A DNA stretch of 38,945 nt from an uncultured Opitutales bacterium. Its GTDB lineage: Bacteria > Verrucomicrobiota > Verrucomicrobiia > Opitutales > UBA953. A program made the position numbers and the translations under genes. The stretch is taken from NCBI GenBank assembly GCA_934675585.1, contig CAKUQY010000018.1:1-38945 (forward strand), written 5' to 3'. Below the pieces are notes generated by a model. The model was not told the origin of the DNA and did not search any database. It worked only from the letters and a program-made list of their open reading frames with translations. Of the stretch, positions 1-38,851 are shown one piece after another; within the stretch, counting starts at the first letter, position 1; every line of letters begins with the position of its first letter.

Positions 1-176
1 CCAAAAAAATACTCCTAACAAAACCTAATACTACCTATGAAACCTAAGGTGCCTCAAAAAAATTAAGGCGAGAAAAAACAACGTTCCCGCGGGCAAATAT
101 CTAAACCAACTCACTCAAAACCAAATTTTATTTTGAGAAAATTTCTGTTTTCATTTATAATCCTTTTTCTATACTC
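1..176. other. AT-rich leader of the window, no gene seen
   Basis: No coding sequence is supported here. The stretch is AT-rich and holds the first copy of the dispersed 9-mer (82-90). TATAAT at 156-161 and TATACT at 170-175 are -10-like boxes just before the start codon at 177. Confidence 0.5.
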
Positions 177-785
177 ATGTGGAAGAACTGTTTTAAACGA
201 TTTTTTGATGTTTGCGCCGCTGCGGGAGCGTTGATTCTTTTGTCGCCTTTGTTGTTGATTGTGTCCGTTTGGCTGCATTTTGCGAACAAAGGCGCGGGAG
301 CGTTTTTTGTTCAGGAGCGTCCAGGAAAAGATGAAAAGATTTTTAAGCTTTACAAATTCAAATCCATGACCGACGAACGCGACGGGAACGGCAATTTGTT
401 GCCAGATGCGCAACGCATTACGCTTGCGGGGCGTTTTGTGCGCGCGACTTCGATCGACGAGCTCCCGCAGTTTTTTAATGTTTTGAAAGGTGATATGTCG
501 CTCATCGGGCCACGTCCGCTGCTGGTGCGTTATTTGCCAGCTTATCGTCCGCGGGAACGCCTGCGTCATTCGGTGCGTCCTGGAATTACGGGCTGGGCGC
601 AGGTAAACGGTCGCAATAATCTTTCGTGGGACAAAAAACTTGCGCTCGATGTCGAATACGTCGAAAACTGTTCTTTTCTTCTCGATTTAAAAATCGCTTG
701 GATGACGGTTTTAAAAGTTTTAAAAAGAAGTGATTTGCAAACTGTTTCTTCTGAAAAATATTTGGATGAAGAACGTTCCCGCTAA
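177..785 (+). CDS. PglC-like phosphoglycosyl transferase (bacterial sugar transferase)
   Basis: This 202-residue protein has the layout of small monotopic phosphoglycosyl transferases, which move a sugar-1-phosphate from a UDP-sugar onto undecaprenyl phosphate at the cytoplasmic membrane. Seen: an N-terminal KRFFDV box followed by one hydrophobic re-entrant segment (about residues 12-35), FKLYKFKSM, the catalytic-region signature SIDELPQFFNVLKGDMSLIG with PRP right after it, and RPGITGWAQVNGRN. The length matches PglC rather than the larger WbaP/WcaJ proteins with extra membrane helices. With the PglD-, PglF- and PglE-like genes downstream, the likely substrate is UDP-diNAc-bacillosamine or a similar amino sugar. 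That substrate is an inference. The end of the gene holds a dispersed 9-mer encoding Arg-Ser-Arg. Confidence 0.9.
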   Translation: MWKNCFKRFFDVCAAAGALILLSPLLLIVSVWLHFANKGAGAFFVQERPGKDEKIFKLYKFKSMTDERDGNGNLLPDAQRITLAGRFVRATSIDELPQFFNVLKGDMSLIGPRPLLVRYLPAYRPRERLRHSVRPGITGWAQVNGRNNLSWDKKLALDVEYVENCSFLLDLKIAWMTVLKVLKRSDLQTVSSEKYLDEERSR

Positions 786-794
786 TTGCTTCTT

Positions 795-817
795 GCGGGA
801 ACGCACTTCGTTCCCGC
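795..817. terminator. Hairpin made of two facing 9-mers
   Basis: GCGGGAACG (795-803) and CGTTCCCGC (809-817) form a perfect 9-bp stem around CACTT, ten bases after the stop codon at 785. No T-run follows, so it may act as a weak or Rho-assisted terminator or protect the 3' end. Confidence 0.5.
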
Positions 818-827
818 GAAAGTTGCA

Positions 828-898
828 AAGAGTTATAAAAACATTAGAAAGTTATAAAAACTTATAAAACTTGAAAAAGTTATAAAAGGTTATAAAAT
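828..898. repeat. Iteron-like TTATAAAA repeats, block 1
   Basis: About five copies of [G/C]TTATAAAA lie in the 80 bp before the ATPase start at 905. A second block with the same units lies after that gene. They could be repeated binding sites or stacked -10-like boxes; which is unknown. Confidence 0.6.
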
Positions 899-904
899 GA
901 ATTT

Positions 905-1939
905 ATGAAGAATCCTTTTTCGTTGATTTTTGGCAAAGAGCCGCTTAATCCTATCAATCGCACAACGCAGATAAATGAGCTCATTGACGATTTTTTGTCG
1001 GAAACTCCTTCGAGTCAGGTTTATATGATTACGGGCGTTTGCGGTTCGGGGAAGACGGTAGCTTTGACTACGCTTTCAAACACTTTTAGGGAAAAGAGTG
1101 ATTGGATTGTGCTTGATTTGAATCCAGGACGCGATTTGTTGCAGGCAATGGGTGCAGAGCTTTGCAATCGAAAAAATCTTATTGAGATTTTTAAGGCGGC
1201 GAATTTGAATTTATCCATTTTTGGTATTGGTTTTAATATTCGTAGCGAGCCGCCGATTAGCGATGTCGTTGTCGCGCTTGAAAAAATGCTAGCGGAGTTA
1301 ACCCGAAAAGGCAAAAAAATTTTGATCACGATTGACGAAGTTTCCAATAGTCGATTTTTGCGCGAATTTATCAGTCAGTATCAAATTTTTGTTCGTAAAA
1401 ATTTTAATGTATTTTTGTTGATGATAGGGCTTTACGAAAATATTTACGAATTGCAGAACGAAAAAACGCTAACATTTTTGTATCGGGCTCCCAAACTTGA
1501 ATTAAAACCGCTTAATATTGTTCTTATCGCTGAAAAATATAAAGAAATTTTTAATCTTGACGACCAAAAAGCTCTGGAAATGGCGAAAGTTACCAAAGGT
1601 TATCCGTTCGCGTTTCAAGTTTTGGGTTATCTTTGTTTTAAAAATAAAATTGTCTGGGAAAAAGCGTTGCCAGAATTCGACGCTTGTCTTGAAGAATATG
1701 TTTATGAAAAGATTTGGAGTGAACTTTCTGAAAAAGATCGCGAGATTTTAATGGTAATGTGCACGACAAATGAAACTAAAATTAATAAAATTAGAGAAGG
1801 TGATAATATTACGTCGGGAACGTTTTCCGTTTATCGTAAGCGCTTGATAAAAAAAGGCATCGTTTACGCGCCCAATTACGGATATTTGGACTTTATTTTG
1901 CTGCGTTTTCGTGAATTCGTTTTGCGCAATATTGATTAA
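905..1939 (+). CDS. AAA/P-loop ATPase of unknown role
   Basis: This 344-residue cytoplasmic protein resembles ORC/STAND-type ATPases. Walker A is GVCGSGKT near residue 43-50 and Walker B is ILITIDEV near residue 139-146. The region after about residue 270 looks like a winged-helix end (SELSEKDREILMVM, then a basic RKRLIKKGIVY segment) and the protein ends LLRFREFVLRNID. No transporter or nuclease motif is visible. The gene sits between two blocks of TTATAAAA repeats, and a decayed copy of its C-terminus lies at 3542-3655. It interrupts the glycan genes, carries almost no dispersed 9-mer and looks like an accessory gene. Function is not assigned. Confidence 0.8.
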   Translation: MKNPFSLIFGKEPLNPINRTTQINELIDDFLSETPSSQVYMITGVCGSGKTVALTTLSNTFREKSDWIVLDLNPGRDLLQAMGAELCNRKNLIEIFKAANLNLSIFGIGFNIRSEPPISDVVVALEKMLAELTRKGKKILITIDEVSNSRFLREFISQYQIFVRKNFNVFLLMIGLYENIYELQNEKTLTFLYRAPKLELKPLNIVLIAEKYKEIFNLDDQKALEMAKVTKGYPFAFQVLGYLCFKNKIVWEKALPEFDACLEEYVYEKIWSELSEKDREILMVMCTTNETKINKIREGDNITSGTFSVYRKRLIKKGIVYAPNYGYLDFILLRFREFVLRNID

Positions 1940-1978
1940 ATTATTCTAATTGTTTTTGTTTTTCGCGGGAGCGCGACA

Positions 1979-2030
1979 ACTTATAAAAAGTTATAAAAGT
2001 TTTCAAAAGTTATAAAAACTTATAAATCTT
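1979..2030. repeat. Iteron-like TTATAAAA repeats, block 2
   Basis: About four further TTATAAA units in the spacer after the first ATPase, matching block 1 at 828-898. The two blocks bracket the gene at 905-1939. Confidence 0.55.
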
Positions 2031-2038
2031 GAAAATTT

Positions 2039-2099
2039 TGCGTTCCCGCGCGTGGATTTCGTGTAAAATTTGCAAATTTTACTCTGGTTTTCGTGTAAA
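2039..2099 (+). repeat. 61-bp direct repeat, copy 1, with a 20-bp perfect palindrome
   Basis: This 61-bp sequence is repeated at 3671-3731 with one mismatch (C2049/T3681). It begins with a 9-mer-type box and holds the perfect palindrome GTAAAATTTGCAAATTTTAC at 2063-2082, then CTGGTTTTCGTGTAAA. A third partial unit (CTGGATTTCGTGTAAAC) follows near 2115-2131. The palindrome looks like a repressor operator or a replication/transposition site. It precedes the ATPase gene at 2194. Confidence 0.8.
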
Positions 2100-2193
2100 A
2101 ACGGCGTAAAAAAGTCTGGATTTCGTGTAAACAAAACTTGAAAATCGCTTTGAACTTGTGTTATTATGTGTTCCCGAGAAAGATTTTTTGATA

Positions 2194-3528
2194 ATGATTT
2201 ATTTGCGAAGAAAATTTGATCAGGTTTTAGCGTCTTGGAAACTTTCGCAAGATCGCTTGCCGATTATTTTGCGAGGAGCGCGTCAGGTTGGAAAAACGGA
2301 AACGATTTTACACTTTGCGAAAAATAATTATTCTCAAATCGTTTATGTCAATTTTGCTTCTTCTCCTAAATTTAAGAGAGTTATTGAGAATGGTTATGAG
2401 CCAGATTCTGTTTTAAAAACGCTTTCTTTTTTGGAGCCGTCTTTTAAGTTTGTTTCTGGGGAAACGTTGTTATTTTTTGATGAAATCCAAGAATTTCCTG
2501 ACATTACAACGACATTAAAGTTTTTTAAAATTGATGGGCGTTACGATGTCATTTGTAGCGGTTCGCTTTTGGGTGTGCAATATTCAAAAATTGAAAGTCA
2601 AAGCGTGGGTTATAAGCTCGAATACGAAATGCGTTCTTTGGATTTTGAGGAATATCTTTGGGCGCAAGGTTATGACGATGAGTTTATTCGGGATATTTTA
2701 GTTCATATGATCGAACGAAGAGTATTTTCACAGCTCGAGTGGGAACGTTATCATTCGTTGTTTATGGATTATGTAGTTGTCGGTGGAATGCCAGCCGTTG
2801 TTCGCGACTTTGTTGAGCAAAAGAATTTTTCACAGACGCGCTTACTTCAAGAACAAATTGTGCGTGGTTATTATTACGATATTGTCAAATATTCTGAGAA
2901 TATTGTTGATAAGAAGCGCATTACGGAAGTTTTTAAGCATGTTGTCCCTACACTTGCAAAAGAATATAAGCGTTTTCAATTGTCCGCGATTTCAAAATCC
3001 GCGCGTTCCCGTGAATATGCGGGTTGCGTGCAACGGCTTATTGATGCGGGCGTTGTGTTGCCATGTTATTGTTTGAATTTTCCAGAATTGCCTTTGCGAG
3101 GTAATTATGACGCTGCAAAATATAAACTTTATGTTGCGGACACGGGGCTTTTAATTTCGATGCTCGACAAAGAAAGTCAAGAAGATTTGCGGGTAAATAA
3201 AAATTTGGGAACTTACAAAGGTGCGATTTATGAAAATTTTGTTGCGGAAGCGTTTATAAAATCTGGTTTAGAACTTTATTATTACAAGCGCGATAAGCCC
3301 GCAATCGAGGAAGATTTTTTTGTGCGAACGACAAAAAATCTCGTTCCCGTAGAAGTTAAATCTAATAAAAATCAATCGGCTTCGTTAAGAACGCTCGTTG
3401 AATCGAATCATTATCCACAAATTACTTGGGGAATTAAGTTGTCTCAACAAAATATTGACGAGGCAGATGGAATTGTGACATTTCCTTATTTTTGTGCTTT
3501 TTTAATTGAACGTTGGCTTCATTTGTAG
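2194..3528 (+). CDS. AAA ATPase with C-terminal DUF4143 domain
   Basis: The family is known: an N-terminal AAA_14-type ATPase plus a C-terminal DUF4143 domain resembling a nuclease fold, common in accessory regions of gut bacteria, with function unproven. Seen: Walker A GARQVGKT near residue 29-36, Walker B LLFFDEIQ, the sensor-like ICSGSLLG, the mid-protein YVVVGGMPAVV, KLYVADTGLL, YENFVAEAF, and the late EEDFF...VPVEVKS segment, where E and K fit the nuclease-like D/ExK core. I chose the ATG at 2194 because MIYLRRKFD is the usual start of this family; an upstream in-frame TTG at 2158 only adds a tail. The gene lies between the two copies of the 61-bp palindromic repeat. Confidence 0.9.
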   Translation: MIYLRRKFDQVLASWKLSQDRLPIILRGARQVGKTETILHFAKNNYSQIVYVNFASSPKFKRVIENGYEPDSVLKTLSFLEPSFKFVSGETLLFFDEIQEFPDITTTLKFFKIDGRYDVICSGSLLGVQYSKIESQSVGYKLEYEMRSLDFEEYLWAQGYDDEFIRDILVHMIERRVFSQLEWERYHSLFMDYVVVGGMPAVVRDFVEQKNFSQTRLLQEQIVRGYYYDIVKYSENIVDKKRITEVFKHVVPTLAKEYKRFQLSAISKSARSREYAGCVQRLIDAGVVLPCYCLNFPELPLRGNYDAAKYKLYVADTGLLISMLDKESQEDLRVNKNLGTYKGAIYENFVAEAFIKSGLELYYYKRDKPAIEEDFFVRTTKNLVPVEVKSNKNQSASLRTLVESNHYPQITWGIKLSQQNIDEADGIVTFPYFCAFLIERWLHL

Positions 3529-11916: not shown

Positions 11917-11969
11917 GTGCCGAAGGCACTAAAATCGCGGGAACGCGTTCCCGCGATGGCTAACCCCCA
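11917..11969 (+). repeat. Left inverted repeat of the RAYT element
   Basis: 53 bp starting GTGCCGAAGGCACT and ending GATGGCTAACCCCCA, with the 18-bp palindrome of the dispersed motif in the middle. It differs from the right copy at three positions. Confidence 0.85.
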
Positions 11970-12557: not shown

Positions 12558-12610
12558 TGGGGGTTAGCCATCGCGGGAACGCGTTCCCGCAATTTCAGCG
12601 CCTTCGGCAC
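12558..12610 (-). repeat. Right inverted repeat of the RAYT element
   Basis: Mirror copy of 11917-11969 with three differences. It is followed by another dispersed 9-mer near 12651 and a short AT-rich stretch before the aminotransferase. Confidence 0.85.
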
Positions 12611-13985: not shown

Positions 13986-14208
13986 AAATTTGCGGGAGCG
14001 CTGATTTTAACGCAAATTTCGCAAATTTCAACGCATACCGAGCGAAGCGATACTTAACATTCCGCAATGTTTTGTGGTTGGCAGGACGCTGGGAACGGGA
14101 TTTTTTATCACTGAATTTAGTGAATAATCTCTGCGCCTTTGCGCCTCTGCGTTAGATTAAAAAAAACAAACACCGAGGCTCAGTGGCGCAGAGTTTTGTT
14201 TTCGGCGA
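13986..14208. repeat. ~225-bp direct repeat, copy A
   Basis: Shares most of its length with 14835-15065. Contains CATACCGAGCGAAGCGATA, AACATTCCGCAATGTT and a long imperfect hairpin whose arms (CTCTGCGCCTTTGCGCC near 14128 and its near-complement ending near 14193) surround an AT-rich loop. It abuts the toxin gene's stop at 14211 and may form that operon's terminator. Confidence 0.8.
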
Positions 14209-14210
14209 GT

Positions 14211-14477
14211 TTAAAAAAGATCGCTGTGCGTTCCCGTGCGATAAAGCATCAGGGTTCCCGCGTCAATCTTGTAAATTAAGAGCCAATCTGGTTGAATGTG
14301 GCATTCACGAAATTTTCGCCAATTGCCAGTGAGTTCGTGGTCGCGATATTTTTGCGGGAGCGGTTTTTCTTGCAGGAGCGTTTCGATGACAAATTTTAAC
14401 GCGCTGAAATCTACGTTGCACCGTTGCATTTGTTTGAGCTCGCGTTTAAACCGCGTGGTTTGGGAAAGGTTAAGCAT
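14211..14477 (-). CDS. YafQ/RelE-type mRNA interferase toxin
   Basis: This 88-residue protein matches the YafQ family of ribosome-dependent mRNA endonucleases. Seen: the opening LSQTTRFKRELKQM helix, RDHELTGNWRKFRECHIQPDWLLIYKID, and the C-terminal LYRTGTHSDLF, where His, Asp and Phe are the expected active-site end. It lies three bases after the antitoxin gene, the normal order for a RelB-type pair. A motif copy gives the Ala-Gly-Thr just before LMLYRTG. Both toxin and antitoxin look intact. Confidence 0.93.
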   Translation of the reverse strand: MLNLSQTTRFKRELKQMQRCNVDFSALKFVIETLLQEKPLPQKYRDHELTGNWRKFRECHIQPDWLLIYKIDAGTLMLYRTGTHSDLF

Positions 14478-14480
14478 TGT

Positions 14481-14771
14481 TTAAATTCCCATCGCTTTGT
14501 AAAATTCTTCAGCGCTGTTAAAATCGGCTTTGCGTTTGCCGGCTTTGATTTCCGCGAGCATTCTATCGCCTTCTTCCATTGCGGCGATTGTTTCGGCGTT
14601 TGGAATTTCGGGAACGCTTGGGCGGAAGGGCAATGATTTTTCAGCGATTGCTTGATGAAAAAACATATTAATTGCACTCGTCATCGAAATGCCGAGTTGC
14701 GAGAAAAGTTTTTCCGCATCGCGTTTTGTTTTGGGGTCGATGCGAATGCTGAGTGTTGCCGTTTTTGCCAT
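14481..14771 (-). CDS. RelB/DinJ-type antitoxin
   Basis: This 96-residue protein begins TATLSIRIDPKTKRDAEKLF, a ribbon-helix-helix DNA-binding start, with GISMTSAINMFFHQAI as the second helix pair, as in DinJ. The C-terminal part is charged and likely wraps the toxin. A clear Shine-Dalgarno (AAGGAGA on the minus strand) precedes the ATG. An ATGTAATAACAT box upstream is a candidate for autoregulation. Family members repress their own operon with the toxin. Confidence 0.93.
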   Translation of the reverse strand: MAKTATLSIRIDPKTKRDAEKLFSQLGISMTSAINMFFHQAIAEKSLPFRPSVPEIPNAETIAAMEEGDRMLAEIKAGKRKADFNSAEEFYKAMGI

Positions 14772-14834
14772 AAATTAAAATCTCCTTGTTGGTTCGTATG
14801 AAATGTTATTACATTGTTTATACTTTTGCAATAC

Positions 14835-18063: not shown

Positions 18064-18111
18064 TTTTTGATAATAATTATAAAAAATCGCGGGAACGGGA
18101 GCAAATTTTGT

Positions 18112-18127: not shown

Positions 18128-18200
18128 TGAACGAAAATCCCGTTCCCGTGAAAAAAATTGTCAATTGTCAATTCTCAACTGTCAATTTATAATAATAGTT

Positions 18201-22391: not shown

Positions 22392-22420
22392 TCGCTAACA
22401 ATTTAACATAACAATAAATT

Positions 22421-22735
22421 ATGGCAAAACAAAAAATTCGTATTCGCCTCGAAGCTTATGATGCTCGCGTGATTGATGCTTCTGCAGCAGAAATCATTGA
22501 AGCAGCAAAGCGCTCAGGCGCTCGCGTTTCGGGTCCTGTGCCAATGCCTACACACATTGAACGCTGGACAGTGAACCGCTCACCACACGTCGATAAAAAA
22601 TCGATGGAGCAATTCGAACAACGCACACACAAGCGTTTGATCGACATTGTTGAGCCAACTCAACAAACCGTTGATGAGCTCAAGAAACTCAACCTCCCTG
22701 CTGGTGTTGAAATTAGTATCGGTCTCGGTGCTTAG
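22421..22735 (+). CDS. rpsJ: 30S ribosomal protein S10
   Basis: The 104-residue protein has [48 protein letters not shown] and [29 protein letters not shown], the family signature. It sits 29 bp after fusA, so str and S10 operons are joined. Confidence 0.97.
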
Positions 22736-22914
22736 TAGAACACTCGCTGTTATCTGAACAAAATTAACTCACTTCCGAGTTTTGCACGCTTTAACTACGA
22801 ATTGTCAGAAATTAATAAGTAAATCTACAAATTAAGTATTGGTAATTACGAGTTAAAATAATGCAGGTCTGTGCAACGGAATTAATCCACCTGCCTCTTA
22901 GAAATCAATAAAAA
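22736..22914. other. Spacer before rplC, no gene seen
   Basis: This 179-bp, AT-rich gap is the longest in the ribosomal operon. It holds GCAGGTCTGTGC near 22863 and CACCTGCC near 22891, whose GCAGGT/ACCTGC parts can pair, so a leader structure or internal promoter is possible. No -35/-10 pair is convincing. Confidence 0.4.
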
Positions 22915-23547: not shown

Positions 23548-23561
23548 GGAGACTTTAGACT

Positions 23562-24182
23562 ATGAAACTTAAAGTTTATACAGTTGATGGTAGCTCCTGC
23601 GCAGAGAAGGATTTCGCAATCCCAACGCTTGAAGAAGGCAAGGGCGTAGCAGCTCTTAAACAAGCAATCATTGCTTATCAAGCAAATCAACGCCAAGGTA
23701 GTGCTAACAGCAAGAATTATGGTGAAGTAGCAGGTTCAGGTAAAAAACAAGGTCCACAAAAAGGCTCGGGCGGTGCTCGTCACGGCGACAAGCGCGCTCC
23801 ACAACTTTCAAAAGGTGGTGTTGTATTTGGTCCTAAGCCACGCGATTGGTCAAAGGCGCTTAATGCAAAAGTTAAAAAACTTGCATTCGTGCGTGCCCTC
23901 ATCGACCTCGCTGCAGAAGGCGGTATCAGTGTGATTGAACACCTTGATACAGAAAACAAGAAAACAAAAGCGATGAATGCAACTCTCGCAAATGTGTTCC
24001 CAAAAGGTAAAATTCTCGTTATCGAGAAAAATTGGGCAGAAAACACAGCGTTTGCGATTCGCAATATTGAACGTGTGTTTACTACAGAAGCTGCTTCTGT
24101 AACCGCGTTTGACTTTGTCGCATTCCATCAAGTCTTGATTAGCGAAGCCGCTTTGCAAGATATCATTCAACGCGCTCAATAA
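23562..24182 (+). CDS. rplD: 50S ribosomal protein L4
   Basis: The 206-residue protein has YQANQRQGSANSKNYGEVAGSG, KKQGPQKGSGGARHGDKRAPQ (the exit-tunnel loop) and VFGPKPRDWSKALNAKVKKLA. A clear AAGGAGA precedes the start, unlike most non-ribosomal genes here. In E. coli L4 represses its own operon; no such site can be recognised here. Confidence 0.96.
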   Translation: MKLKVYTVDGSSCAEKDFAIPTLEEGKGVAALKQAIIAYQANQRQGSANSKNYGEVAGSGKKQGPQKGSGGARHGDKRAPQLSKGGVVFGPKPRDWSKALNAKVKKLAFVRALIDLAAEGGISVIEHLDTENKKTKAMNATLANVFPKGKILVIEKNWAENTAFAIRNIERVFTTEAASVTAFDFVAFHQVLISEAALQDIIQRAQ

Positions 24183-24196
24183 GGAGAACTCAGTAA

Positions 24197-24478
24197 ATGA
24201 AATCTGCAATTATTAAACGCCAACTCGTTTCGGAAAAAACAGCCGCTTTGGCAGCTGAAAACAAATATGTTTTCGCAGTCGCAAAAGACGCTGATAAAAA
24301 AGCGATCGCAGCAGCCGTTGCTGCAGCATTCAATGTAACCGTTGAAGCTGTGCATATTATCAATGTACTCGGCAAACGCCATAGCTCGCGCACAATTCGT
24401 GGCGCTATCGTGAAGGCTCCGGACGTAAAAAAGGCAATCGTCACTCTTAAAGAGGGCGACAAGATTGAACTTAACTAA
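24197..24478 (+). CDS. rplW: 50S ribosomal protein L23
   Basis: The 93-residue protein docks at the tunnel exit. Seen: IIKRQLVSEKTAALAAENKYVF, DADKKAIAAAVAAAFNVTVEAVH and the late KAIVTLKEGDKIEL. A Shine-Dalgarno AAGGAGA lies before ATG 24197. Confidence 0.95.
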   Translation: MKSAIIKRQLVSEKTAALAAENKYVFAVAKDADKKAIAAAVAAAFNVTVEAVHIINVLGKRHSSRTIRGAIVKAPDVKKAIVTLKEGDKIELN

Positions 24479-24498
24479 TAGGGGAGATTAAAAATATT

Positions 24499-25356
24499 AT
24501 GGCTCTCAAAACAACACGTCCTTTGACTCCTTCTCAACGTTATTTGGTCCGCAACAAGCAAGACCTTTCAAAAAAACGTCCAGAGAAAGACCTCGTTGAA
24601 AACAAAAATCACACAGGTGGTCGCAACAATAATGGTCGCATCACTTCACGCCGTCGCGGTGGAGGACACAAACGTCTTTATCGTTTGGTCGATTTCCGTC
24701 GTACGAAATATGAAGTTCCTGCAACTGTGATTGCTCTCGAATACGATCCAAATCGTTCGGCAAATCTTGCTTTGATTGAATATACCGATGGCGAAAAAGC
24801 TTACATCCTCGCTCCTGATGGATTGGCTGTTGGCGCAACGGTTATGGCAACACAAAAACCTGTTGAAGAATTTAACCCAGGTTGGTCGATCAAACTTCGT
24901 TACATCGCACCTGCAACATTTATCCATGCGATTCAAATGGAACCAGGCAAAAAAGCGCGCATCGCTCGCTCAGCCGGCATTGCTGCTCAATTGCTCGGTA
25001 TCGAAGGCGATCTCGCGATTTTGAAAATGCCTTCAGGCGAACAACGCTACATCAACGCTGATTGCGCAGCAACGATTGGTTATGTGGGCAACCGCGAACA
25101 CCAAAACCGTTCGCTCGGCAAAGCGGGTCGTAACCGTTGGCTCGGTCGCCGTCCACGCGTTCGTGGTATGGTGATGAATCCTGTCGATCACCCGAACGGT
25201 GGTGGCCAAGGTAAGTCAAAAGGTGGAGGCGGACGTCAACATCTTCGCTCACCATGGGGTCAACTTTCAAAAGGTTTCCCAACTCGTATCAAGTCAAAGT
25301 CTACCAACGTTCATATTATTGAACGTCGCAACGGACGCAAAGTTAAGAAAGGCTAA
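24499..25356 (+). CDS. rplB: 50S ribosomal protein L2
   Basis: The 285-residue protein has [72 protein letters not shown] and [15 protein letters not shown]. The invariant histidine of DHP is kept, but the usual second His of DHPHGGG is Asn. Preceded by AGGGGAG (weak Shine-Dalgarno). Confidence 0.97.
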
Positions 25357-25361
25357 TTACC

Positions 25362-25637
25362 ATGTCACGTTCTACGAAAAAAGGCTTCTATGTGGAAGCT
25401 TCATTGATGCAGAAGGTTTTGGCAGCTCAAAAATCGGGCGATCACAAGCCAATCAAAACTTGGTCACGTCGTTCGATGGTAACTCCAGACTTTGTGGGTC
25501 TCAACCTCAATGTTCACAATGGCAAGGTGTTTGTGCCTGTTTATGTGACAGAAAATATGGTTGGCCACAAACTCGGCGAGTTCGCTCCAACCCGTACGTT
25601 CAAGCAACATACACAACCAACCAAGAAAGCTGTCTAA
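25362..25637 (+). CDS. rpsS: 30S ribosomal protein S19
   Basis: The 91-residue protein begins [14 protein letters not shown] and has [49 protein letters not shown], the S19 signature. It lies five bp after rplB and three before the secreted-protein frame. Confidence 0.97.
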
Positions 25638-25640
25638 TCT

Positions 25641-25994
25641 GTGAAAAACGCTTTCACAACAATGTTTACTTGCGTAGCAATGGCACTTTGTGCTGTTGCT
25701 GCGGGTGAACCTACAACCAAAGTAGTTCCTTGCGAAGTCGTTCGCGTGAGTACTGCAAAAGTTGCCAATATTGTTGTGGGCGAGAGTGCTGATTATATTG
25801 TATTTGATGCAGGTATGAATAAAAACTTTTGTGTGGGCGCTTATTGCGTTATTGAACGTGGGAACGCTAAAGTCGCAGAAGTTATCATCGCCGATGCAAA
25901 TGCAGAAAAAGCAGTCGCTCTTGTTACAGCGCTTGAAAACAATAAATCAGTTTTGGCTGGTGATACAGTAAAACTTAAAACCCTTACATTTTAA
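25641..25994 (+). CDS. Exported small protein of unknown function inside the ribosomal operon
   Basis: A 117-residue protein from a GTG start lies between rpsS and rplV, where all bacteria I know of have none. It starts with a signal peptide (MKNAFTTMFTCVAMALCAVAAG, 'AVA' or 'AAG' as cleavage end) and no good lipobox. The mature part (about 95 residues) is beta-rich: VVRVSTAKVANIVV, DYIVFDAGMNKNFCVGAYCVIERGNAKVAEVII, KAVALVTAL, VLAGDTVKL. The last part looks like the small beta-barrel seen in cell-envelope proteins of the FlgT-C type; that is only a guess. A motif variant lies at 25860 (ERGNA). The frame is open, tightly packed (3 bp from rpsS, 4 bp from rplV) and uses codons like its neighbours, so it is likely real. 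Confidence 0.85.
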   Translation: MKNAFTTMFTCVAMALCAVAAGEPTTKVVPCEVVRVSTAKVANIVVGESADYIVFDAGMNKNFCVGAYCVIERGNAKVAEVIIADANAEKAVALVTALENNKSVLAGDTVKLKTLTF

Positions 25995-25998
25995 ACCT

Positions 25999-26334
25999 AT
26001 GGAAGTTAAATCCATCTCTAAAAACGTTCGCATTACGCCTTCAAAAGTGCGCGATGTTGCACGTCAAATTAAAGGCCTTCCTGTGCTTGACGCGGTTGAC
26101 CTTCTTCGATTCATTCCTCGCAAAGCTGCTCGCCTTTTGGCAAAAACTCTCAACAGCGCAATTGCTAATGCAGAAAACAATAATAGTCTTAACGCAAAAG
26201 ACCTCGTGATCGTTGCTGCAACCGCAAACCAAGGTCCTGTTTTGAAACGTTTTCGTCCAACGGCAAAGGGCTCTGCTCACCCAATCCGTAAATCAACTTG
26301 CCATATCACAATCGTGGTTGGCGACAACAAATAA
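25999..26334 (+). CDS. rplV: 50S ribosomal protein L22
   Basis: The 111-residue protein has NVRITPSKVRDVARQIKG, LLRFIPRKAARLLAKTLNSAIANAENN, and the tunnel-lining hairpin VLKRFRPTAKGSAHPIRKSTCHITIVV. No Shine-Dalgarno is seen; the gene is only 4 bp after the secreted-protein gene. Confidence 0.97.
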   Translation: MEVKSISKNVRITPSKVRDVARQIKGLPVLDAVDLLRFIPRKAARLLAKTLNSAIANAENNNSLNAKDLVIVAATANQGPVLKRFRPTAKGSAHPIRKSTCHITIVVGDNK

Positions 26335-26350
26335 TTGAAAGAATAACACT

Positions 26351-26980
26351 ATGGGACAAAAAACAAATCCTATCGGCTTTCGTCTTGCTGTCAACCACAA
26401 TTGGGACTCAAAGTGGTACGCTGACAAGAAAGATTTCGCAGAAAATCTTAAAAGCGACTATGTGATCCGTGAATTCCTGAATAAGAAACTCGCAGATGCA
26501 GGTGTAGCTCGTATCGTTATTGAACGCGCTCGTGGCAACAAGATTCGTGTGACGATCAACGTTGTGCGCCCAGGCGTCGTTGTTGGTAAAAATGGCGATG
26601 AAAGCAAAAAATTGCGTGACGAACTTACCAAAAAATCTGGCAAAGAAGTCATTCTCGACATTAAAGAAGTTAAGCAACCAGAACTCGTTGCGCAACTCGT
26701 CGCAGAAAACATCGCTCGCCAGCTTGAACGTCGTGCACAATTCCGTCGCGTGATGAAAAAAGCGATCCAATCGACAATGAATGCTGGCGCTGACGGTATC
26801 CGTCTCCGCATCGCTGGTCGTATTGGCGGCGCTGAAATCGCACGTGTCGAATCTGCTCGTCAAGGTCGCGTGCCATTACACACACTCCGTGAGAACATTG
26901 ACTACGGTTTTGTTGAAGCAAATACCGTTTATGGCAAACTTGGCATTAAATGCTGGATTTGCGCTCACAGCGATCGTTAA
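26351..26980 (+). CDS. rpsC: 30S ribosomal protein S3
   Basis: The 209-residue protein has MGQKTNPIGFRLAV, the KH domain with VVGKNGDESKKLRDEL, RRAQFRRVMKKAIQSTMNAGADGIRLRIAGRIGGAEIARVE and YGKLGIKCWIC. The C-terminal tail is short, as in many bacteria. Confidence 0.97.
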   Translation: MGQKTNPIGFRLAVNHNWDSKWYADKKDFAENLKSDYVIREFLNKKLADAGVARIVIERARGNKIRVTINVVRPGVVVGKNGDESKKLRDELTKKSGKEVILDIKEVKQPELVAQLVAENIARQLERRAQFRRVMKKAIQSTMNAGADGIRLRIAGRIGGAEIARVESARQGRVPLHTLRENIDYGFVEANTVYGKLGIKCWICAHSDR

Positions 26981-27014
26981 TTAACCCTCCAATTTTAGAA
27001 AGAGAGAAATTATC

Positions 27015-27443
27015 ATGGCTAATATTCAACCATCACGCGTTAAGTATCGCAAGGTGCAAAAAGGTCGTATTTACGGCACAGCACAATCTTGCAACGACCT
27101 CGCTTTTGGAGAGTATGGTATTCAAGCTCTTGAGCGTTGTCGTATGACATCTGCTCAACTTGAAGCTGCTCGTGTTGCAATCTCGCGTTATTTGAAACGT
27201 AAAGGTAAAATGTGGATGCGCGTGTTCCCGCACAAACCAGTCACCAAAAAACCTGCCGAAGTTCGTATGGGCTCGGGTAAAGGTAACGTGGAATACTGGG
27301 CTGCGGTTATCCGCCCAGGCACAATGCTTTTCGAAGTTTCTGGCGTTCCTATGTCAGCAGCTCGCGAAGCTATGCGCCTCGCAGACACCAAACTCCCTAT
27401 CCATTGCCGCTTCATTAGTCGCGAGCAACAAGCTAAGTTTTAA
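27015..27443 (+). CDS. rplP: 50S ribosomal protein L16
   Basis: The 142-residue protein has QPSRVKYRKVQKGRIYGTAQ, ALERCRMTSAQLEAARVAISRYLKRKGKMWMRVFPHKPVTKKPAEVRMGSGKGN and the methyl-target region. It is the last gene before a terminator; rpmC and rpsQ, which normally follow, are not here. A motif variant (TGTTCCCGCA) encodes VFPH, which is normal for the family. Confidence 0.97.
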   Translation: MANIQPSRVKYRKVQKGRIYGTAQSCNDLAFGEYGIQALERCRMTSAQLEAARVAISRYLKRKGKMWMRVFPHKPVTKKPAEVRMGSGKGNVEYWAAVIRPGTMLFEVSGVPMSAAREAMRLADTKLPIHCRFISREQQAKF

Positions 27444-28454: not shown

Positions 28455-28476
28455 TCGTTCCCGACAACAAAAAATG

Positions 28477-28512
28477 CGTTCCCGTGAATTCGCTTCGCGG
28501 GAACGTTTTTTT
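28477..28512 (+). terminator. Strong terminator of hisG built from facing motifs
   Basis: CGTTCCCGTGAA (28477-28488) pairs with TTCGCGGGAACG (28494-28505), 12 bp with one G-U pair, loop TTCGC, followed by seven T. Both arms are dispersed-motif sequences. Confidence 0.9.
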
Positions 28513-29027
28513 GTCAACGAATTTCACGAATCTTACGAATGGGTTTTGCGGGAACGGGAACATGGAAAAATTTCAAGAGTGCTTTTCACGAAGTGTTTTT
28601 GAAGTTTTTCTTCGCGTAAATTAGCGTTTATTCGTAGTTGAAAAAAAACCGTTCCTGTAAAAAAAAATCTCGCCCGAAGGACAAAGGTTTCTAAGTTTCG
28701 GCGGTTTAAGCCGCCGAAGAAATTTGAAAAAATCTTAAAATTCTTTAGCGAGCTTCGCGAGTAGGTTCTCTTAATTTCTTTCTTTTTTTTTTACATCCCC
28801 CGTTCCCGCCGCTCCCGCGCTCCCTGCGTTACCTTAGCAACGCTCCCAAAAAATCTTCGTGCCTTTGTATTCTTCGTGTGAGAAATTTTCCGTTCCTGTG
28901 TTCCCGTGTCTAAAAAATCTTAAAAATCCGTTAATCTGTGGATTTCTTTAAACTTATGTTACCGCGTTATGCAATTGCAAAAAGGGCGTTGTGAGCATAA
29001 AATATTAGTAATAAATCGATTTTTACA
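28513..29027. other. 515-bp repeat-rich spacer, no gene seen
   Basis: No coding frame is supported. It holds TTCGTAGTTGAAAAAAAACC (28631-28650, related to repeats at 35100 and 35335), a repeat with the hairpin TTCGGCGG-loop-CCGCCGAA (28668-28718, also at 36769-36818) and a third repeat (28821-28882, also at 35147-35210). Two motif copies are near 28549 and 28801. AAAATATTAG about 29 bp before nuoB is a possible -10 region. Confidence 0.6.
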
Positions 29028-33108: not shown

Positions 33109-33948
33109 ATGCTCGAAATCGTTCTCGTTATCGCGATTAATTTCGTTCTCGCTGGCGCTTGTGTTGCGGGAACGCTCGGCGCGCTCAAAAAAAACTGGCG
33201 CATCGCGCGACAAATCGCGGCGGGAACGCTTTTGTTCGCGGGAACGCTACAAATTATTTTTCTTGGTATGCGTGGTTTGGGCAGTGGCATTTTGCCGATT
33301 TATAATTTGTTTGAAGTTTTTTTCTCGTTGAGCTTGTGTTCTGTGCTGGCGTTTTTGTTTTTGCGAATCGTTTGGGAAATTCGCGTTCCCGCCGTTGCTT
33401 GCGCGTGGCTCGCGTTTTTGCTTTCGCTCATCGCGTCGGTAAATAAAAGTTTTTGGGATGTCGCGGGAGCGGAATCGTGGCTGCCGGTGCACATTGGCTT
33501 GTTGCTCGTGGGCGTTGCGTGTTTGAGCGCGGCGAGTATTACTTGGACGCTTTACCTTTTGCAAGATCGCGCGTTGCGCAAATATCAAGCCGATTCGTTC
33601 GCAACGCATTTGCCCGATTTGCTTTCGCTCGAACACGTCGGTCAGCGCTTGCTTTCGAGCAGCATTGTTTTTTTTGTCGCGGGAACAGCCGTTGGCGTGC
33701 TTAATATTTTCGCCACGAAAAACGGTTTAACTTTGTTTGTCGCTTACAAAATTTTGATTTCGGGAACGCTTATTTGCGCTTTGATTTTACTTTATGTTTT
33801 GCGCAAAAAACATAAAATCTCTGCGCGCGCGGGAACGATTTTTGGACTCGCTATTTTCGCGCTTGCAATTATTTTAATCGGCGGAATTGACGGCGTTCAC
33901 AAATATTCATCGCGCCAAATAGAAACGGAAACGCTCAATGAAAATTAG
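33109..33948 (+). CDS. CcsA/HemX-like membrane protein
   Basis: The 279-residue protein has about eight hydrophobic helices and resembles the cytochrome c assembly/HemX family, in which CcsA carries heme across the membrane and HemX regulates HemA. Seen: GSGILPIYNLFEVFFSLSLC and SWLPVHIGLLLVGVACLSAAS, with a His in the position of the family's heme ligands, and a second WNIFATKN-like loop (LNIFATKNG). The WWD motif of full CcsA is not obvious, so HemX-like is favoured. ATG 33109 starts one base after the previous stop, and hemA overlaps the end by 11 bp. Five motif copies encode Ala-Gly-Thr. Confidence 0.82.
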   Translation: MLEIVLVIAINFVLAGACVAGTLGALKKNWRIARQIAAGTLLFAGTLQIIFLGMRGLGSGILPIYNLFEVFFSLSLCSVLAFLFLRIVWEIRVPAVACAWLAFLLSLIASVNKSFWDVAGAESWLPVHIGLLLVGVACLSAASITWTLYLLQDRALRKYQADSFATHLPDLLSLEHVGQRLLSSSIVFFVAGTAVGVLNIFATKNGLTLFVAYKILISGTLICALILLYVLRKKHKISARAGTIFGLAIFALAIILIGGIDGVHKYSSRQIETETLNEN

Positions 33949-34978
33949 CGAAAATCTCGTTCCCGCGGGAAAAATTTTGCGCGTGATTTCGTGTAATTTT
34001 AATTGCACAAATGAAAATTTGCGCCAAGCAATCTCGTTCCCGCACGAAGCCGTTCCCGCATTTTATCAAAACGCGTTCCCGTGCGACGAAATCGCGCTTG
34101 TCGCCACCTGCAATCGCGTGGAAATTTATTCGCTCGTTTCTGCGGGAACACCTTTTTTTGAAGCCGAATTTTTAGCCAAGCGCGCGGGCGTTTCCGCTGA
34201 AATTATTTTGAAAAACGCGCAACAATTTGAGGGGCTTGCCGCGATTGAACATTTGTGCGCCGTCGCCGCGGGGCTCGAATCGCAGATGATCGGCGAAATC
34301 GAAATTTTTGGACAAATCAAGGATGCTTACGAAATCGCCGCGAACGCGAAAAAAACGGGGCGCGCGCTCAATAAAATTTTTCAAAAATGTTTTCATTTCG
34401 CGAAATGGCTACGCACCAACACCGCGATCGCGCAGGGGCAAGTCAGCGTCGGCAATGTCGCCGTGAGCTTGGCGCAACGCATTTTCGGCGATTTGTCGCG
34501 CTCGAGCGTTTTCGTCGCGGGAACGGGCGAGGTTGGCAGAAAAGTCGCCCAGGCGTTCGCGAATCGCGACGCGGGAACGCTTGTCATCGCTTCCCGCAAT
34601 TTTGAAAACGCTCGCTCGCTCGCCGCGGAAATCGGGCCTTGCGTGTCCGTCGCCGAACTCAAAAATTTTGCCGAACAATTAAAGCGTGTCGATATCGTCA
34701 TCGGCGCGTTGAGCGTTCCCGAGCCCGTTTTACGTTCCCGCGAAGTTGCCGAAATTTTGCGTTCCCGCGACGGCAGACCTTTGTTTTTTATTGATTTGGG
34801 AATGCCGCAAAATTTTGAATCTGCGCTTGCCGATTTGCCCGACGTTTGGCTTTACACACTCGAAAATCTCGCCGAAATTGCCAACAAAAATCTCGCAGCC
34901 CGCAAAGCCGAACTCGAACTTTGCCGCCACGAAATCCGTTCCCGCGTCGAAAAAAATTTCGCAAAAGTTGAGAGTTGA
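33938..34978 (+). CDS. hemA: Glutamyl-tRNA reductase, short form
   Basis: HemA reduces glutamyl-tRNA(Glu) to the semialdehyde, the first step of tetrapyrrole synthesis. Seen: the catalytic-cysteine motif LVATCNRVEIYS, GLESQMIGEIEIFGQIKDAY, SVGNVAVSLAQRIFG, the NADPH loop VAGTGEVGRKVAQAF, FFIDLGMPQNFE. At 346 residues it lacks most of the C-terminal dimerization domain (typical proteins have about 410-450) and stops soon after KAELELCRHEIRSR. No frameshift continuation is visible after the stop. The gene carries about eight exact motif copies, the densest of any gene here. It is coupled to the HemX-like gene by an 11-bp overlap, as in the Bacillus hemAX order reversed. Confidence 0.92.
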   Translation: MKISENLVPAGKILRVISCNFNCTNENLRQAISFPHEAVPAFYQNAFPCDEIALVATCNRVEIYSLVSAGTPFFEAEFLAKRAGVSAEIILKNAQQFEGLAAIEHLCAVAAGLESQMIGEIEIFGQIKDAYEIAANAKKTGRALNKIFQKCFHFAKWLRTNTAIAQGQVSVGNVAVSLAQRIFGDLSRSSVFVAGTGEVGRKVAQAFANRDAGTLVIASRNFENARSLAAEIGPCVSVAELKNFAEQLKRVDIVIGALSVPEPVLRSREVAEILRSRDGRPLFFIDLGMPQNFESALADLPDVWLYTLENLAEIANKNLAARKAELELCRHEIRSRVEKNFAKVES

Positions 34979-35428: not shown

Positions 35429-36697
35429 GTGAAATTGCTCGACAGAAAAATTATCGTTCCCGCGCTGACGTTTTGCGTTTGCGTTGCGCTTTCGTTGGCG
35501 GCGGCTTGGGAGCGTCCGTTTCACAGCGACGAAGCGGTGCAGGCGTGGCGCGTTTGGACGTGGCTCGGCGGGAGCGCCGATTTGGTTTACGAGCCGCGAT
35601 TTCACGGGCTGACGCTTTATTATTTTGCTGCGCCGTTTTTGCATTTTGGCGGGAACGAAGTCGCGTTGCGGCTGTTGCCGATTTTGATTTGCGCGGGAAC
35701 GGTGGTTGCCTTGCCAGCGATTGTCTGGGGATTTTGCAGACCGTTTTTTAACGCGCTCGTTTCGTTAGTTTTGGCGAGCGTGCCGCTATGGATTTTTTAT
35801 TCGGGAGATTTTATTCAGGAGCCGATTTTCGTGTCGTTCGCGTGGTTAGCGGGAACGCTTTTGTTTTGTCGGGAACGGATTTTTGCGGGCGCGATTTTTG
35901 CGGGTTTGGCGATTGCGAGCAAGGAAAGCTGGCCGTTTTTTGTCGCCGCGTTTTTGGCGGGCGGGATGCGTTTTTCTTGGAAAAATTTTGCCGTCGCGGC
36001 GAGCGTTGCCACGTTTGTCGCGCTCGCGTTTTATAGCTCGTTTTTTACGTGGATGTCGCATTTTGATTTTTCCGTTCCCGCGTCGGTCGAAAACGACGTG
36101 AATTATTTTTTCGTTGCGGGAACGCTTTTGCCGATGATAGTTTTCGCTCTGGCGGGAATGTTGAGAAAATCGCGTTCGTGGGAACTCGTTTTTTTCACGG
36201 TTGCGAGCGTTTTTTTGTGGGCGGTTTATTTTATTTTGCCGCATCGCGAGCCGTGGCTGTTGCTTTCTGCCGTGCCAGGAACGGTTTTGGCGTTTGCGGA
36301 AAGCGCGCGAATTTTGCTGGCGGGAACGAAAAAATATTTGCTTTTGGCGGGAACGGTTTTTTTGAACGCGGGAACGCTTTTAGTTTTTCCGCTCGAAAAA
36401 ATTTGCGGCTACGTTGAAACGTCGCGCGGGAACGCTGCATTTGTCGAACAAATCGAAAAAACTACGGGAACGCTCGCGGTTTATGGGAACGCAATTTGGC
36501 CGCTCCCGTGGCAGTTGCGGGAACGCGAAAATGTCGGCTATTTCGATGATAAAATTTTGCGGGAAGAGTTTGAAATTGTTGTCGCGCCCGTCGAATTTTG
36601 GGAAAGCTGGAACGCGGAAAATTATTGGACGCGCGCAGTCGGCGAACTCCGCGATGGTGTCATTTTGGAAATGCGCACGCGGGAAGGCGCACGGTGA
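35429..36697 (+). CDS. TIGR03663-like membrane glycosyltransferase
   Basis: A 422-residue integral membrane protein of the GT39/Agl23-like group (TIGR03663, called flippase-associated). Seen: the opening helix, then AAWERPFHSDEAVQAWRVWTWLGG, with the Asp-Glu pair of GT-C enzymes, YEPRFHGLTLYYFAAPFLHFGG, FIQEPIFVSFAWLAGT, SKESWPFFVAAF and about ten hydrophobic helices, ending with a soluble tail. It likely uses a lipid-linked sugar at the outer face of the membrane. The start is GTG 35429. About ten dispersed motifs encode AGT or GNA in the loops and helices. Confidence 0.82.
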   Translation: MKLLDRKIIVPALTFCVCVALSLAAAWERPFHSDEAVQAWRVWTWLGGSADLVYEPRFHGLTLYYFAAPFLHFGGNEVALRLLPILICAGTVVALPAIVWGFCRPFFNALVSLVLASVPLWIFYSGDFIQEPIFVSFAWLAGTLLFCRERIFAGAIFAGLAIASKESWPFFVAAFLAGGMRFSWKNFAVAASVATFVALAFYSSFFTWMSHFDFSVPASVENDVNYFFVAGTLLPMIVFALAGMLRKSRSWELVFFTVASVFLWAVYFILPHREPWLLLSAVPGTVLAFAESARILLAGTKKYLLLAGTVFLNAGTLLVFPLEKICGYVETSRGNAAFVEQIEKTTGTLAVYGNAIWPLPWQLRERENVGYFDDKILREEFEIVVAPVEFWESWNAENYWTRAVGELRDGVILEMRTREGAR

Positions 36698-37010: not shown

Positions 37011-37077
37011 TGTTTGCGGGAACGAAAAAATTAAAATCTTGCGGAAGATTTATTTTTTTGAGAGAATAGTTAGCATT

Positions 37078-37641
37078 ATGGCAAATACAACTGTTAATAA
37101 CATTAAGCGTAAAAACATTATCCGCTATAACGGCGATCTTTGCATCGTGCTCGAGTGCCAAGTTCGCACTCCTCCTAACAACGCGTCTTACTGCCAAATG
37201 GAGCTCCGCTCGTTGGCTTATGGCAATATTATTCCTGTGCGCACGAACATTGGTGCGTCGTTTGACGTGCTTGAAAATAACATTCGCAAACTTGATTTGC
37301 TTTATACGGCAGACGGCGCGTATGTTTTTTCGGATCCTGAAACATTTGAAGAATATCCAATTGGTCAAGACAAACTCGCGGACATCGCAGGCTTTTTGAT
37401 TGAAGGTCAAGCTTATGACGTGCTTTTTGTTGAAGACAAGCCAGTAACGGTTTCGTTGCCAGCTTCGATTGAGATGAAAGTTGTTGAAGCTCCACCAGCA
37501 GTGAAGGGCAATTCGGCAACCAACGCTCAAAAAGCAGTTAAGGTTGAAACAGGTATCACGATCAACGTTCCTTTGTTCATTGCTGAGGGTGAAAAGATTC
37601 GTGTCAGCACCGAAGATAAAACTTATCTCGGTCGCGCATAG
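37078..37641 (+). CDS. efp: Elongation factor P with an unusual tip loop
   Basis: EF-P helps ribosomes through polyproline stretches. The 187-residue protein has the three-domain layout, with the N-terminal IKRKNIIRYNGDLCIVLECQ and the C-terminal GITINVPLFIAEGEKIRVSTEDKTYLGR, the family end motif. The domain-I loop that carries a modified Lys (E. coli PGKGQA) or Arg reads PPNNAS, so no Lys or Arg is at the tip; Asn would be. Other proteins of this window, such as the two with tract-encoded polyproline, would be natural clients. ATG 37078 is chosen over TTG 37039 by alignment to the family start. Confidence 0.93.
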   Translation: MANTTVNNIKRKNIIRYNGDLCIVLECQVRTPPNNASYCQMELRSLAYGNIIPVRTNIGASFDVLENNIRKLDLLYTADGAYVFSDPETFEEYPIGQDKLADIAGFLIEGQAYDVLFVEDKPVTVSLPASIEMKVVEAPPAVKGNSATNAQKAVKVETGITINVPLFIAEGEKIRVSTEDKTYLGRA

Positions 37642-37668
37642 TTTTGCGTTCCCGCAGAAAATGAAATC

Positions 37669-37702
37669 CGTTCCCGTAAGATTTGCGGGAACGTTTTTTT
37701 TT
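37669..37702 (+). terminator. Strong terminator of efp built from facing motifs
   Basis: CGTTCCCGTAA (37669-37679) pairs with TTGCGGGAACG (37683-37693), 11 bp with one G-U pair, loop GAT, followed by nine T. The next promoter box TAGAAT follows at 37706-37711. Confidence 0.9.
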
Positions 37703-37718
37703 GTTTAGAATAGGTTTG

Positions 37719-38687
37719 ATGAAATCTCGATTGCTGACATTTTTTGGGCTGTTTTTTTTGTGCGCTTGCGTTGCGTTCGCGGGAGCGGAAAAAAAGAATT
37801 ACGAGCAGGCGTTGAAGTCCGGCGGCAAAGACGGCGCGGTGGTTTTTGTTTACGGACCCGATTGGGAAGGGCGCGGCGAAAAATTGTTGGCTGAACTTTT
37901 TAAAAACAAGGCGGTGAAAAATGCTTGCGGGAACGCTGGGCTGGTCGCGATTCCCGTTTATCAGCGTCCCAACGAAAAGCAAAAAAAAGAGGCAGAGAGC
38001 GCGGGCAAGGGCTTTCGGGCGACGCGCAAGGTGAGAAGTTATCCTGCGCTGATTTTGAAAGGCGCGGACGGGAACGATTATTATACGGTTTGCGGGGACG
38101 AGATTTTGCAGAAGCCAGAAAAAGTCGCGGAGTTGATGAAAGAAAAATTTGAACTTTACAAAAAACAGCGGGAAATTTTGAAGAAAGCCGAGAAAGCGCA
38201 AGGGCTGGCTCTTGCGAAAATTTACGCGGAAGCGTGCAATGTTGAGGGGATTTACGATCCGCCTGGCGCCGATAAAATTATTCGTACGCACGATCCAAAT
38301 TTGAAAGAAGATGTTTGCGCGCGCGCGTTGTTTGATATTTTTAAACTGATTACCGACCGCACACACCCTGGCGAGAAAAACGACACGAGCAACATATATT
38401 CCAACGACGCGGTAATTGCGCGTATGAAGGAATTGACCGCGGGCGACCGCTACACGCCGCAACAAAAGCAGGAAATTTATATGGCGGCGACGGGACTGTT
38501 GCGGCGCAACAATTACGACGCGAAGACGTTGCGAAAATACTGGGCGGAAATGGTCGCGCTTGATCCTGACAGCATTTACGCGAAATACGCGCTCAATTCG
38601 GCGGAAATTTACACAGGAGAGCCGTTGCCGAAAATAAAAAAACAGGAATCGGCGGCTTCCGCGGGAACGAAAAAAACAGGGAAATAA
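37719..38687 (+). CDS. Exported protein with a thioredoxin-like region, unknown function
   Basis: A 322-residue protein with a signal peptide (KSRLLTFFGLFFLCACVAFA, cleavage likely after AFA). The first ~120 mature residues look thioredoxin-like: DGAVVFVYGPDWEGRGEKLL, a later VRSYPALILKGADGNDYYTV with the cis-proline-type loop, but no CxxC. A charged coiled segment follows (EKVAELMKEKFELYKKQREILKKAEKAQ), then a helical domain with MAATGLLRRNNYDAKTLRKYW. Start ATG 37719 lies seven bases after TAGAAT without a Shine-Dalgarno. Not recognised as a known family. Its TAA overlaps the next ATG. Confidence 0.8.
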   Translation: MKSRLLTFFGLFFLCACVAFAGAEKKNYEQALKSGGKDGAVVFVYGPDWEGRGEKLLAELFKNKAVKNACGNAGLVAIPVYQRPNEKQKKEAESAGKGFRATRKVRSYPALILKGADGNDYYTVCGDEILQKPEKVAELMKEKFELYKKQREILKKAEKAQGLALAKIYAEACNVEGIYDPPGADKIIRTHDPNLKEDVCARALFDIFKLITDRTHPGEKNDTSNIYSNDAVIARMKELTAGDRYTPQQKQEIYMAATGLLRRNNYDAKTLRKYWAEMVALDPDSIYAKYALNSAEIYTGEPLPKIKKQESAASAGTKKTGK

Positions 38688-38851
38688 TGTTTTTTGCGCG
38701 CTTAATTAATTGGTTTAAAGGCGGGGCGCGTTCCCGCGAGCCGTTATCGCCAGCAGCGCGTCGAGTGCTTTGGTTGCTCGCGTTAGTCGTTTATTTTATT
38801 TTGCTTTACATTTTATACAAGAGTATTTGGGCTTGGAATATTTTTGATTAG
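38687..38851 (+). CDS. 54-residue single-helix membrane protein
   Basis: A small frame starts in TAATG (stop and start overlap at 38685-38689), so it is probably co-translated with the exported protein. The protein has a basic N-terminal part (LINWFKGGARSREP...ARRVLW) and one membrane helix, LLALVVYFILLYILYK, with a short tail. The exact motif at 38729-38737 encodes Arg-Ser-Arg. Function unknown. Confidence 0.7.
   Translation: MFFARLINWFKGGARSREPLSPAARRVLWLLALVVYFILLYILYKSIWAWNIFD

Follow-up and report, generated by a model that had tools for sequence, protein, structure and literature searches.

The question raised by this locus is why one 9-bp word should be repeated throughout a bacterial contig. 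The locus is a stretch of 38,945 bp from an uncultured Opitutales bacterium (contig CAKUQY010000018.1), referred to below in its full length as the window, and the word, GCGGGAACG, was found in it in 108 exact copies, 68 on the plus strand and 40 on the minus strand. This exact recount agreed with the approximately 108 copies given in a first-pass annotation of the same DNA. The explanation that we consider best, with a probability of roughly 0.65, is that GCGGGAACG is a DNA uptake (self-recognition) sequence that is kept by biased natural transformation; we infer competence, a receptor and biased uptake from the properties of the word described below.

The abundance of the word was compared with several expectations. 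In 100 dinucleotide-preserving shuffles of the window the mean number of copies was 0.72 and the largest 4, and a first-order Markov model gave 0.66; the expectation of 0.3 in the first-pass annotation was a little low, but the huge excess that it claimed was confirmed. When the 9-mers of the window were ranked, GCGGGAACG was at the top and the next ranks, poly-C apart, were shifts of it. Letter-scrambled controls (200 words) had on average 0.35 copies and at most 17, some of the scrambles being shifts of GCGGGAACG. The many near-copies that had been noted earlier were also recovered (104 copies with one mismatch, compared to about 15 expected), and the ratio of observed to expected copies at 0, 1, 2 and 3 mismatches was 161, 6.8, 1.1 and 0.84. 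For the uptake words of Haemophilus influenzae and Neisseria gonorrhoeae, enrichment falls consistently with mismatch load (PMC1939737; here and below the literature is cited for parts of the papers). A contrast set of 80 loci of other phyla contained 13 copies of GCGGGAACG in 1,324,125 bp, with at least one copy in 12 of the 80. These loci were the best 80 of a longer list of matches to the DUF1846 protein of the window, with Fibrobacter, Bacteroidales and Firmicutes-type titles and one plain 'bacterium', and no motif-rich locus was found among them.

The density of GCGGGAACG was 2.8/kb in the whole window and 3.5/kb without the ribosomal block at 19300-27400, in line with the 3-4/kb outside the ribosomal genes estimated earlier. 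The mean spacing was 361 bp, and the spacing was near-random outside that block. The copies are distributed as follows:

82..38737, both orientations: exact copies of GCGGGAACG, at 3.4-5.5/kb in 1-904, 3529-13989, 14831-19299 and 27401-38945.

The gene set used to examine codon use consisted of 29 called genes (29.7 kb), with a few start sites chosen by us and several small ribosomal and other genes uncalled, and contained 78 copies of the word. When synonymous codons were shuffled among equal residues (200 trials) the mean was 3.7 copies and the largest number 10, and shuffling of whole codons gave a mean of 0.4. The first-pass annotation had proposed a signal at the DNA level and had named an explanation by codon use alone among the things that could speak against it; in these shuffles codon use alone failed to account for the excess, and the DNA-level signal was upheld. 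As had also been stated, copies were present in both orientations and all six codon phases were occupied (phases 0/1/2: sense 33/7/9, antisense 9/7/13), with no clear trend in their position within genes. DNA outside the called genes was as rich in the word as the genes themselves, with 29 whole copies (3.1/kb) and one more straddling a gene edge. The commonest phase encodes Ala-Gly-Thr, a tripeptide found 39 times compared to 1-7 times for the five other orders of these residues, and 33 of the 39 were spelled exactly GCG GGA ACG while 5 more differed by one base. Given this excess of one residue order and its spelling as the word, it is GCGGGAACG that shapes the proteins and not the proteins that shape the word.

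The strand bias that the first-pass annotation had raised as a check was not seen outside the called genes (17:13, p = 0.58). Within genes, almost all of which lie on one strand, 49 copies were sense and 29 antisense (p = 0.03). This excess came entirely from the Ala-Gly-Thr phase, which accounts for 33 of the 49; when that phase is set aside, antisense copies (29) outnumber sense copies (16).

GCGGGAACG is not a palindrome, its reverse complement being CGTTCCCGC. Most of the changes tolerated in the window affected position 0 (A 27, T 19), 6 (G 14) or 8 (A 9); the ends were tolerant, and the centre CGGGA and position 7 near-invariant. When the 30 copies not contained in called genes were aligned, the neighbouring bases were mostly T (19) and C (16) before the word and C (21) after it, giving a fuller word of approximately TCGCGGGAACGC; an AT-rich stretch on the 3' side was weak. 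The information in the flanks dropped within a few bases and the sequence common to the copies ended at about 12 bp. Spread by a nicking enzyme, one of the roles proposed earlier, is unsupported because the copies share almost nothing past this length. A dispersed mobile repeat of the repetitive extragenic palindromic (REP) or miniature inverted-repeat transposable element (MITE) kind was likewise rejected, as a longer common element was absent and the flanks diverged within a few bases.

The copies were unevenly distributed among genes, and the following regions stood out as poor or rich in the word:

905..3528, plus strand: a pair of ATPase genes of low GC (0.37), at 905-1939 and at 2158-3528, 0 copies (p = 0.0013); a lone copy at 2041 sits between them.

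13990..14830, minus strand: RelB/YafQ toxin-antitoxin module (Pfam) flanked by direct repeats, 0 exact copies.

19300..27400, plus strand: rpsG, fusA and ribosomal-protein block (S7 and L4 by Pfam), 1 copy compared to 22 expected at the mean rate.

17143..18171, minus strand: ppx/gppA-like gene, 10 copies, one of the two densest genes.

33938..34978, plus strand: hemA (Pfam), 8 copies.

35429..36697, plus strand: open reading frame (ORF) without a Pfam match, 11 copies.

The word appeared to be scarce in strongly constrained DNA and in DNA that was probably newly acquired, and both recently gained segments and coding sequence under strong constraint are poor in uptake sequences (PMC7811141).

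Paired copies of the word in opposite orientations were found at the ends of genes and elsewhere:

28476..28513, plus strand: terminator-like hairpin made of two inverted motif cores and a T-run, 22 bp past the stop of hisG (named by Pfam); fold z -5.8, with 0 of 200 shuffles as good.

37669..37702, plus strand: terminator-like hairpin made of two inverted motif cores and nine T, 28 bp past the stop of efp (EF-P by Pfam); fold z -5.1 compared to shuffles.

774..817, no strand assigned: end of a sugar-transferase gene, where three copies alternate in orientation and form a hairpin without a T-run; z -4.2.

11937..11954, no strand assigned: perfect head-to-head pair GCGGGAACGCGTTCCCGC without a T-run; fold z only -2.3.

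12573..12590, no strand assigned: second perfect head-to-head pair without a T-run; fold z only -0.8.

The hairpins past hisG and efp were located at 28476-28506 and 37669-37693, respectively. The two head-to-head pairs folded little or no better than shuffles. In the DNA uptake sequence (DUS) system, inverted pairs serve as terminators and the mean spacing of the DUS is about 1,150 bp (PMC2397512).

The word was also found in a phage. When IMG/VR was scanned with a pattern of two closely spaced CGCGGGAACG copies, this led to the Mu-like phage contig IMGVR_UViG_3300017520_000205 (here G011; 28,059 bp), which encodes a Mu-type portal and a terminase and carries 43 dispersed copies of GCGGGAACG (29 on the plus and 14 on the minus strand) compared to 0.8 expected, with 0 matches to the reversed control. 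Its enrichment fell with mismatches in a similar way to that of the window, being 47, 3.9 and 1.4-fold at 0, 1 and 2 mismatches. Mu-like phages of other hosts had 2 copies (0.6 expected) and 1 copy (1.2 expected). The base following the word was more often G in G011, and the differences between its word and that of the window could be a matter of dialect or of decay. Seven viral pattern scans gave at least 120, 21, 7, 20, 3, 0 and 34 stretches; whole-length counts of GCGGGAACG were made for 12 viral records (8 + 4) and the other records were counted over the matched stretch. No second record with both dispersed and dense copies was found in these scans, one of which gave at least 120 matches and in which most records were partly covered. 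In one record, G013, 9 copies were spread over 40 kb and the reversed control had 0 matches; the matched stretch was 69% GC. In several other viral records the copies formed local tandem clusters. The only terminase relative of G011 in IMG/VR was itself, and among the best 10 of 215 phage records its terminase was at most 37% identical.

Other features of G011 were a D12-class adenine methyltransferase whose middle part contains a repeated Leu-Glu/Gln-rich stretch (L247:735-2000), a protein that matches a sialyltransferase (GT29) and, further along, weakly matches a cytidine monophosphate (CMP)-sugar cytidylyltransferase (L247:10617-11930), and a repeat-rich contig end (L247:12733-13875) where long frames overlap and further words, e.g. 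CGAGCGCG, are enriched.

Comparison of the window with relatives was made at the protein level. EF-G of the contig was 87% identical to that of Candidatus Spyradosoma (Verrucomicrobiota, Opitutia), to which the source of the window is thus related. Proteins named Opitutales matched HemA at 68% and Ppx at 76% identity. Strain variants of the two proteins occur in metagenomes, in a cluster of 20 members for HemA and of 27 for Ppx. When 29 of the 80 contrast genomes were searched with EF-G no close relative was found among them: in 10 genomes the best full-length matches were 44-55% identical (two genomes gave pieces only), and of 19 further genomes 2 passed E 1e-255 (57-58% identical) and 17 failed. 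The Ala-Gly-Thr imprint was then counted in HemA and Ppx. The window proteins (P0121, P0241) contained 6 such tripeptides compared to a mean of 0 for the five other residue orders, and P0122 and P0242, each named Opitutales and perhaps from different metagenome-assembled genomes, contained 7 compared to a mean of 0.2. In 27 next-tier proteins there were 22, the other orders having a mean of 4.6 and a largest value of 9, and in 200 far proteins there were 28 compared to a mean of 62.2. P0134-P0138, P0240, P0260 and P0360 were excluded from these tiers, and P0243 was counted alone (2 vs 0). Because the imprint is present in the Opitutales proteins and fades in distant homologues, there is a hint that GCGGGAACG is older than this strain; the rows are related and some of the sites are naturally conserved, which makes the imprint a lead and not a proof.

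To our knowledge, uptake 'self' labels have so far been described in two families of bacteria, both belonging to a different phylum. The uptake signal sequences (USS) of the Pasteurellaceae (Hin-USS AAGTGCGGT, Apl-USS ACAAGCGGT) resemble GCGGGAACG in that a non-palindromic word of 9 bp is hugely enriched on both strands, is rare in DNA that is constrained or seems newly acquired and, if G011 lives in a related host, accumulates in temperate phages. USS accumulate in temperate Pasteurellaceae phages and singled out all 12 Pasteurellaceae-lysogenising phages among 2,045 Caudovirales (PMC6776037), and in our own count four Pasteurellaceae phages carried 17, 17, 17 and 5 copies of AAGTGCGGT compared to 0.2-0.3 expected. 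GCGG is the inner core of the USS too, possibly by chance. GCGGGAACG differs in belonging to another phylum, in being otherwise a different word and in an AT-rich 3' flank that is at best weak. With the DUS of the Neisseriaceae it shares a conserved inner core and inverted pairs as terminators. Within genes one orientation of GCGGGAACG prevails, and van Passel (PMC2346458) describes such a preference in reading frames for uptake sequences in general. The DUS sequence is, however, unrelated, and the receptor ComP belongs to the DUS system. Cyanobacterial HIP1 (GCGATCGC) and other highly iterated palindromes (HIPs) are also very dense, single GC-rich words whose deviations are biased to the ends, but they are palindromic and linked to methyltransferases. 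Chi (GCTGGTGG in Escherichia coli) is likewise a short, asymmetric, G-rich word, but is enriched only about 6.7-fold, compared to about 160-fold for GCGGGAACG, and GCGGGAACG is unbiased outside called genes.

In the mechanism that we envisage, a naturally competent member of the Opitutia (Verrucomicrobiota) would recognise the short, non-palindromic word through its uptake machinery, and DNA bearing it would be taken up more often and then recombined into the chromosome. Owing to this preference, copies born by mutation would spread and be kept by molecular drive wherever the function of the protein or RNA tolerates them. Resident prophages would acquire copies by the same route, and inverted pairs at gene ends would be re-used as terminators. 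Among the roles listed in the first-pass annotation, DNA uptake fits best; methylation and chromosome organisation are less probable. The marks that can be read from sequence were found in full or in part, and the word would work like an uptake sequence, although we stop short of counting it among the proven ones. We put the chances at about even that it represents a third, independently evolved uptake-sequence system, located in Verrucomicrobiota, which a clade related to Spyradosoma and the temperate phages of that clade would share with small differences akin to dialects.

Other explanations would place the cause elsewhere. One of these, and an unlikely one, is a new genome-wide mark for protein binding or self-protection (nucleoid organisation or a tag against degradation) that is useful to host and phage. 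The very high density, the presence of the word in G011 and an asymmetry like that of Chi and of the FtsK-orienting polar sequences (KOPS) are compatible with this, but there is no strand bias outside called genes, the enrichment far exceeds that of Chi in E. coli (1,008 observed vs 151 expected; PMC1939737), and absence from acquired-looking and strongly constrained genes would be odd for an essential mark. We also regard as improbable, to about the same degree, a HIP1-like origin without any uptake, in which mutation throughout the resident DNA, including prophages, would be biased in favour of the word by a DNA modification enzyme, perhaps together with mismatch repair. The word is present in chromosome and phage alike, its one-base deviations are mostly at the ends, and the D12-class enzyme of G011 would be a candidate. 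HIP1 and its alternates are, however, palindromes tied to methyltransferases, with deviations mostly at the word ends (PMC4390886), and the likeness to HIP1 drawn in the first-pass annotation fails because GCGGGAACG is not a palindrome; terminator use of inverted pairs and absence from acquired-looking genes also suit a drive by uptake better.

A recombination hotspot of the Chi type, or replication-oriented sites of the KOPS type, appear very unlikely. Such sites would be short, asymmetric and G-rich, and the genic sense excess could be taken for their orientation, but that excess exists only in the Ala-Gly-Thr phase, and in the 39 kb covered the copies outside called genes are balanced. Least credible of all is that the word results from a preference for certain codons or amino acids, or that it is what remains of a dispersed mobile repeat. 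That 33 of the 108 copies are in the Ala-Gly-Thr phase would agree with the former, which is refuted for the window by the codon shuffles and the counts of Ala-Gly-Thr orders, and is at odds with the equal density outside called genes; the latter is contradicted by copies having almost nothing in common past about 12 bp.

Several observations weigh against an uptake sequence. The basis is one 39-kb contig, and a HIP-like mutational drive would yield several of the same marks. The spacing of 361 bp is about three times denser than the approximately 1,000-1,150 bp of H. influenzae and N. meningitidis. No uptake gene was found among the seven Pfam-named host proteins or gene groups and the other named proteins of the window, so that host competence is unseen. 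There was no overall excess of terminator-like sites in the window (35 vs 40.7 and 45 vs 37.5 in shuffles). As to the avoidance pattern, hisG, efp and the gene for the 20-kDa subunit of complex I likewise have 0 copies, and the low-GC gene 9054-9725 carries 2 copies, from which it follows that GC alone is no marker of copy-free genes. G011 tolerates changes at positions 0, 6 and 8 as the window does, plus 2, 3, 4 and 7, and is without the AT-rich 3' flank. In tetranucleotide usage 21 of 179 other loci were nearer to the window than G011 is, and it is the word alone that suggests a related host for this phage.

Among the titles listed in our literature search, with most subscription journals and bioRxiv outside its scope, no description of GCGGGAACG was found. 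If the uptake reading is true, sequence-tagged DNA exchange arose outside Proteobacteria too, the word points to a new DNA receptor comparable with ComP, and the molecular-drive model gains an independent replicate. A case from a further phylum would reveal which traits of uptake sequences have arisen convergently (paired terminators, accumulation in prophages and avoidance of constrained genes), and the word would serve as a tag linking phages to uncultured hosts; on why a further case matters we refer to a part of PMC12616744 (2025).

Some observations on individual genes of the window were also made. The RelB antitoxin and YafQ toxin genes are located at 14211-14771 on the minus strand, with flanking direct repeats about 850 bp apart (region 13975-15055). 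Over about 166 aligned bases the repeat copies show 9 differences, and both of their motif sites differ (2 vs about 1 expected), which is illustrative only. The DUF1846 protein (31621-33108) had its best genome-contig matches, 65-76% identical, in records titled Fibrobacter, Bacteroidales/Muribaculaceae and Firmicutes-type, and from these matches its gene looks horizontally exchanged. Finally, a polysaccharide-type gene cluster contains long homopolymers within or at the ends of ORFs, C22 (4460-4481), G13 (5150-5162), G12 (5651-5662) and C19 (7976-7994). These tracts are candidate phase-variation sites, and the G13 run may be the point of a frame change in the ORF at 4548-5573.

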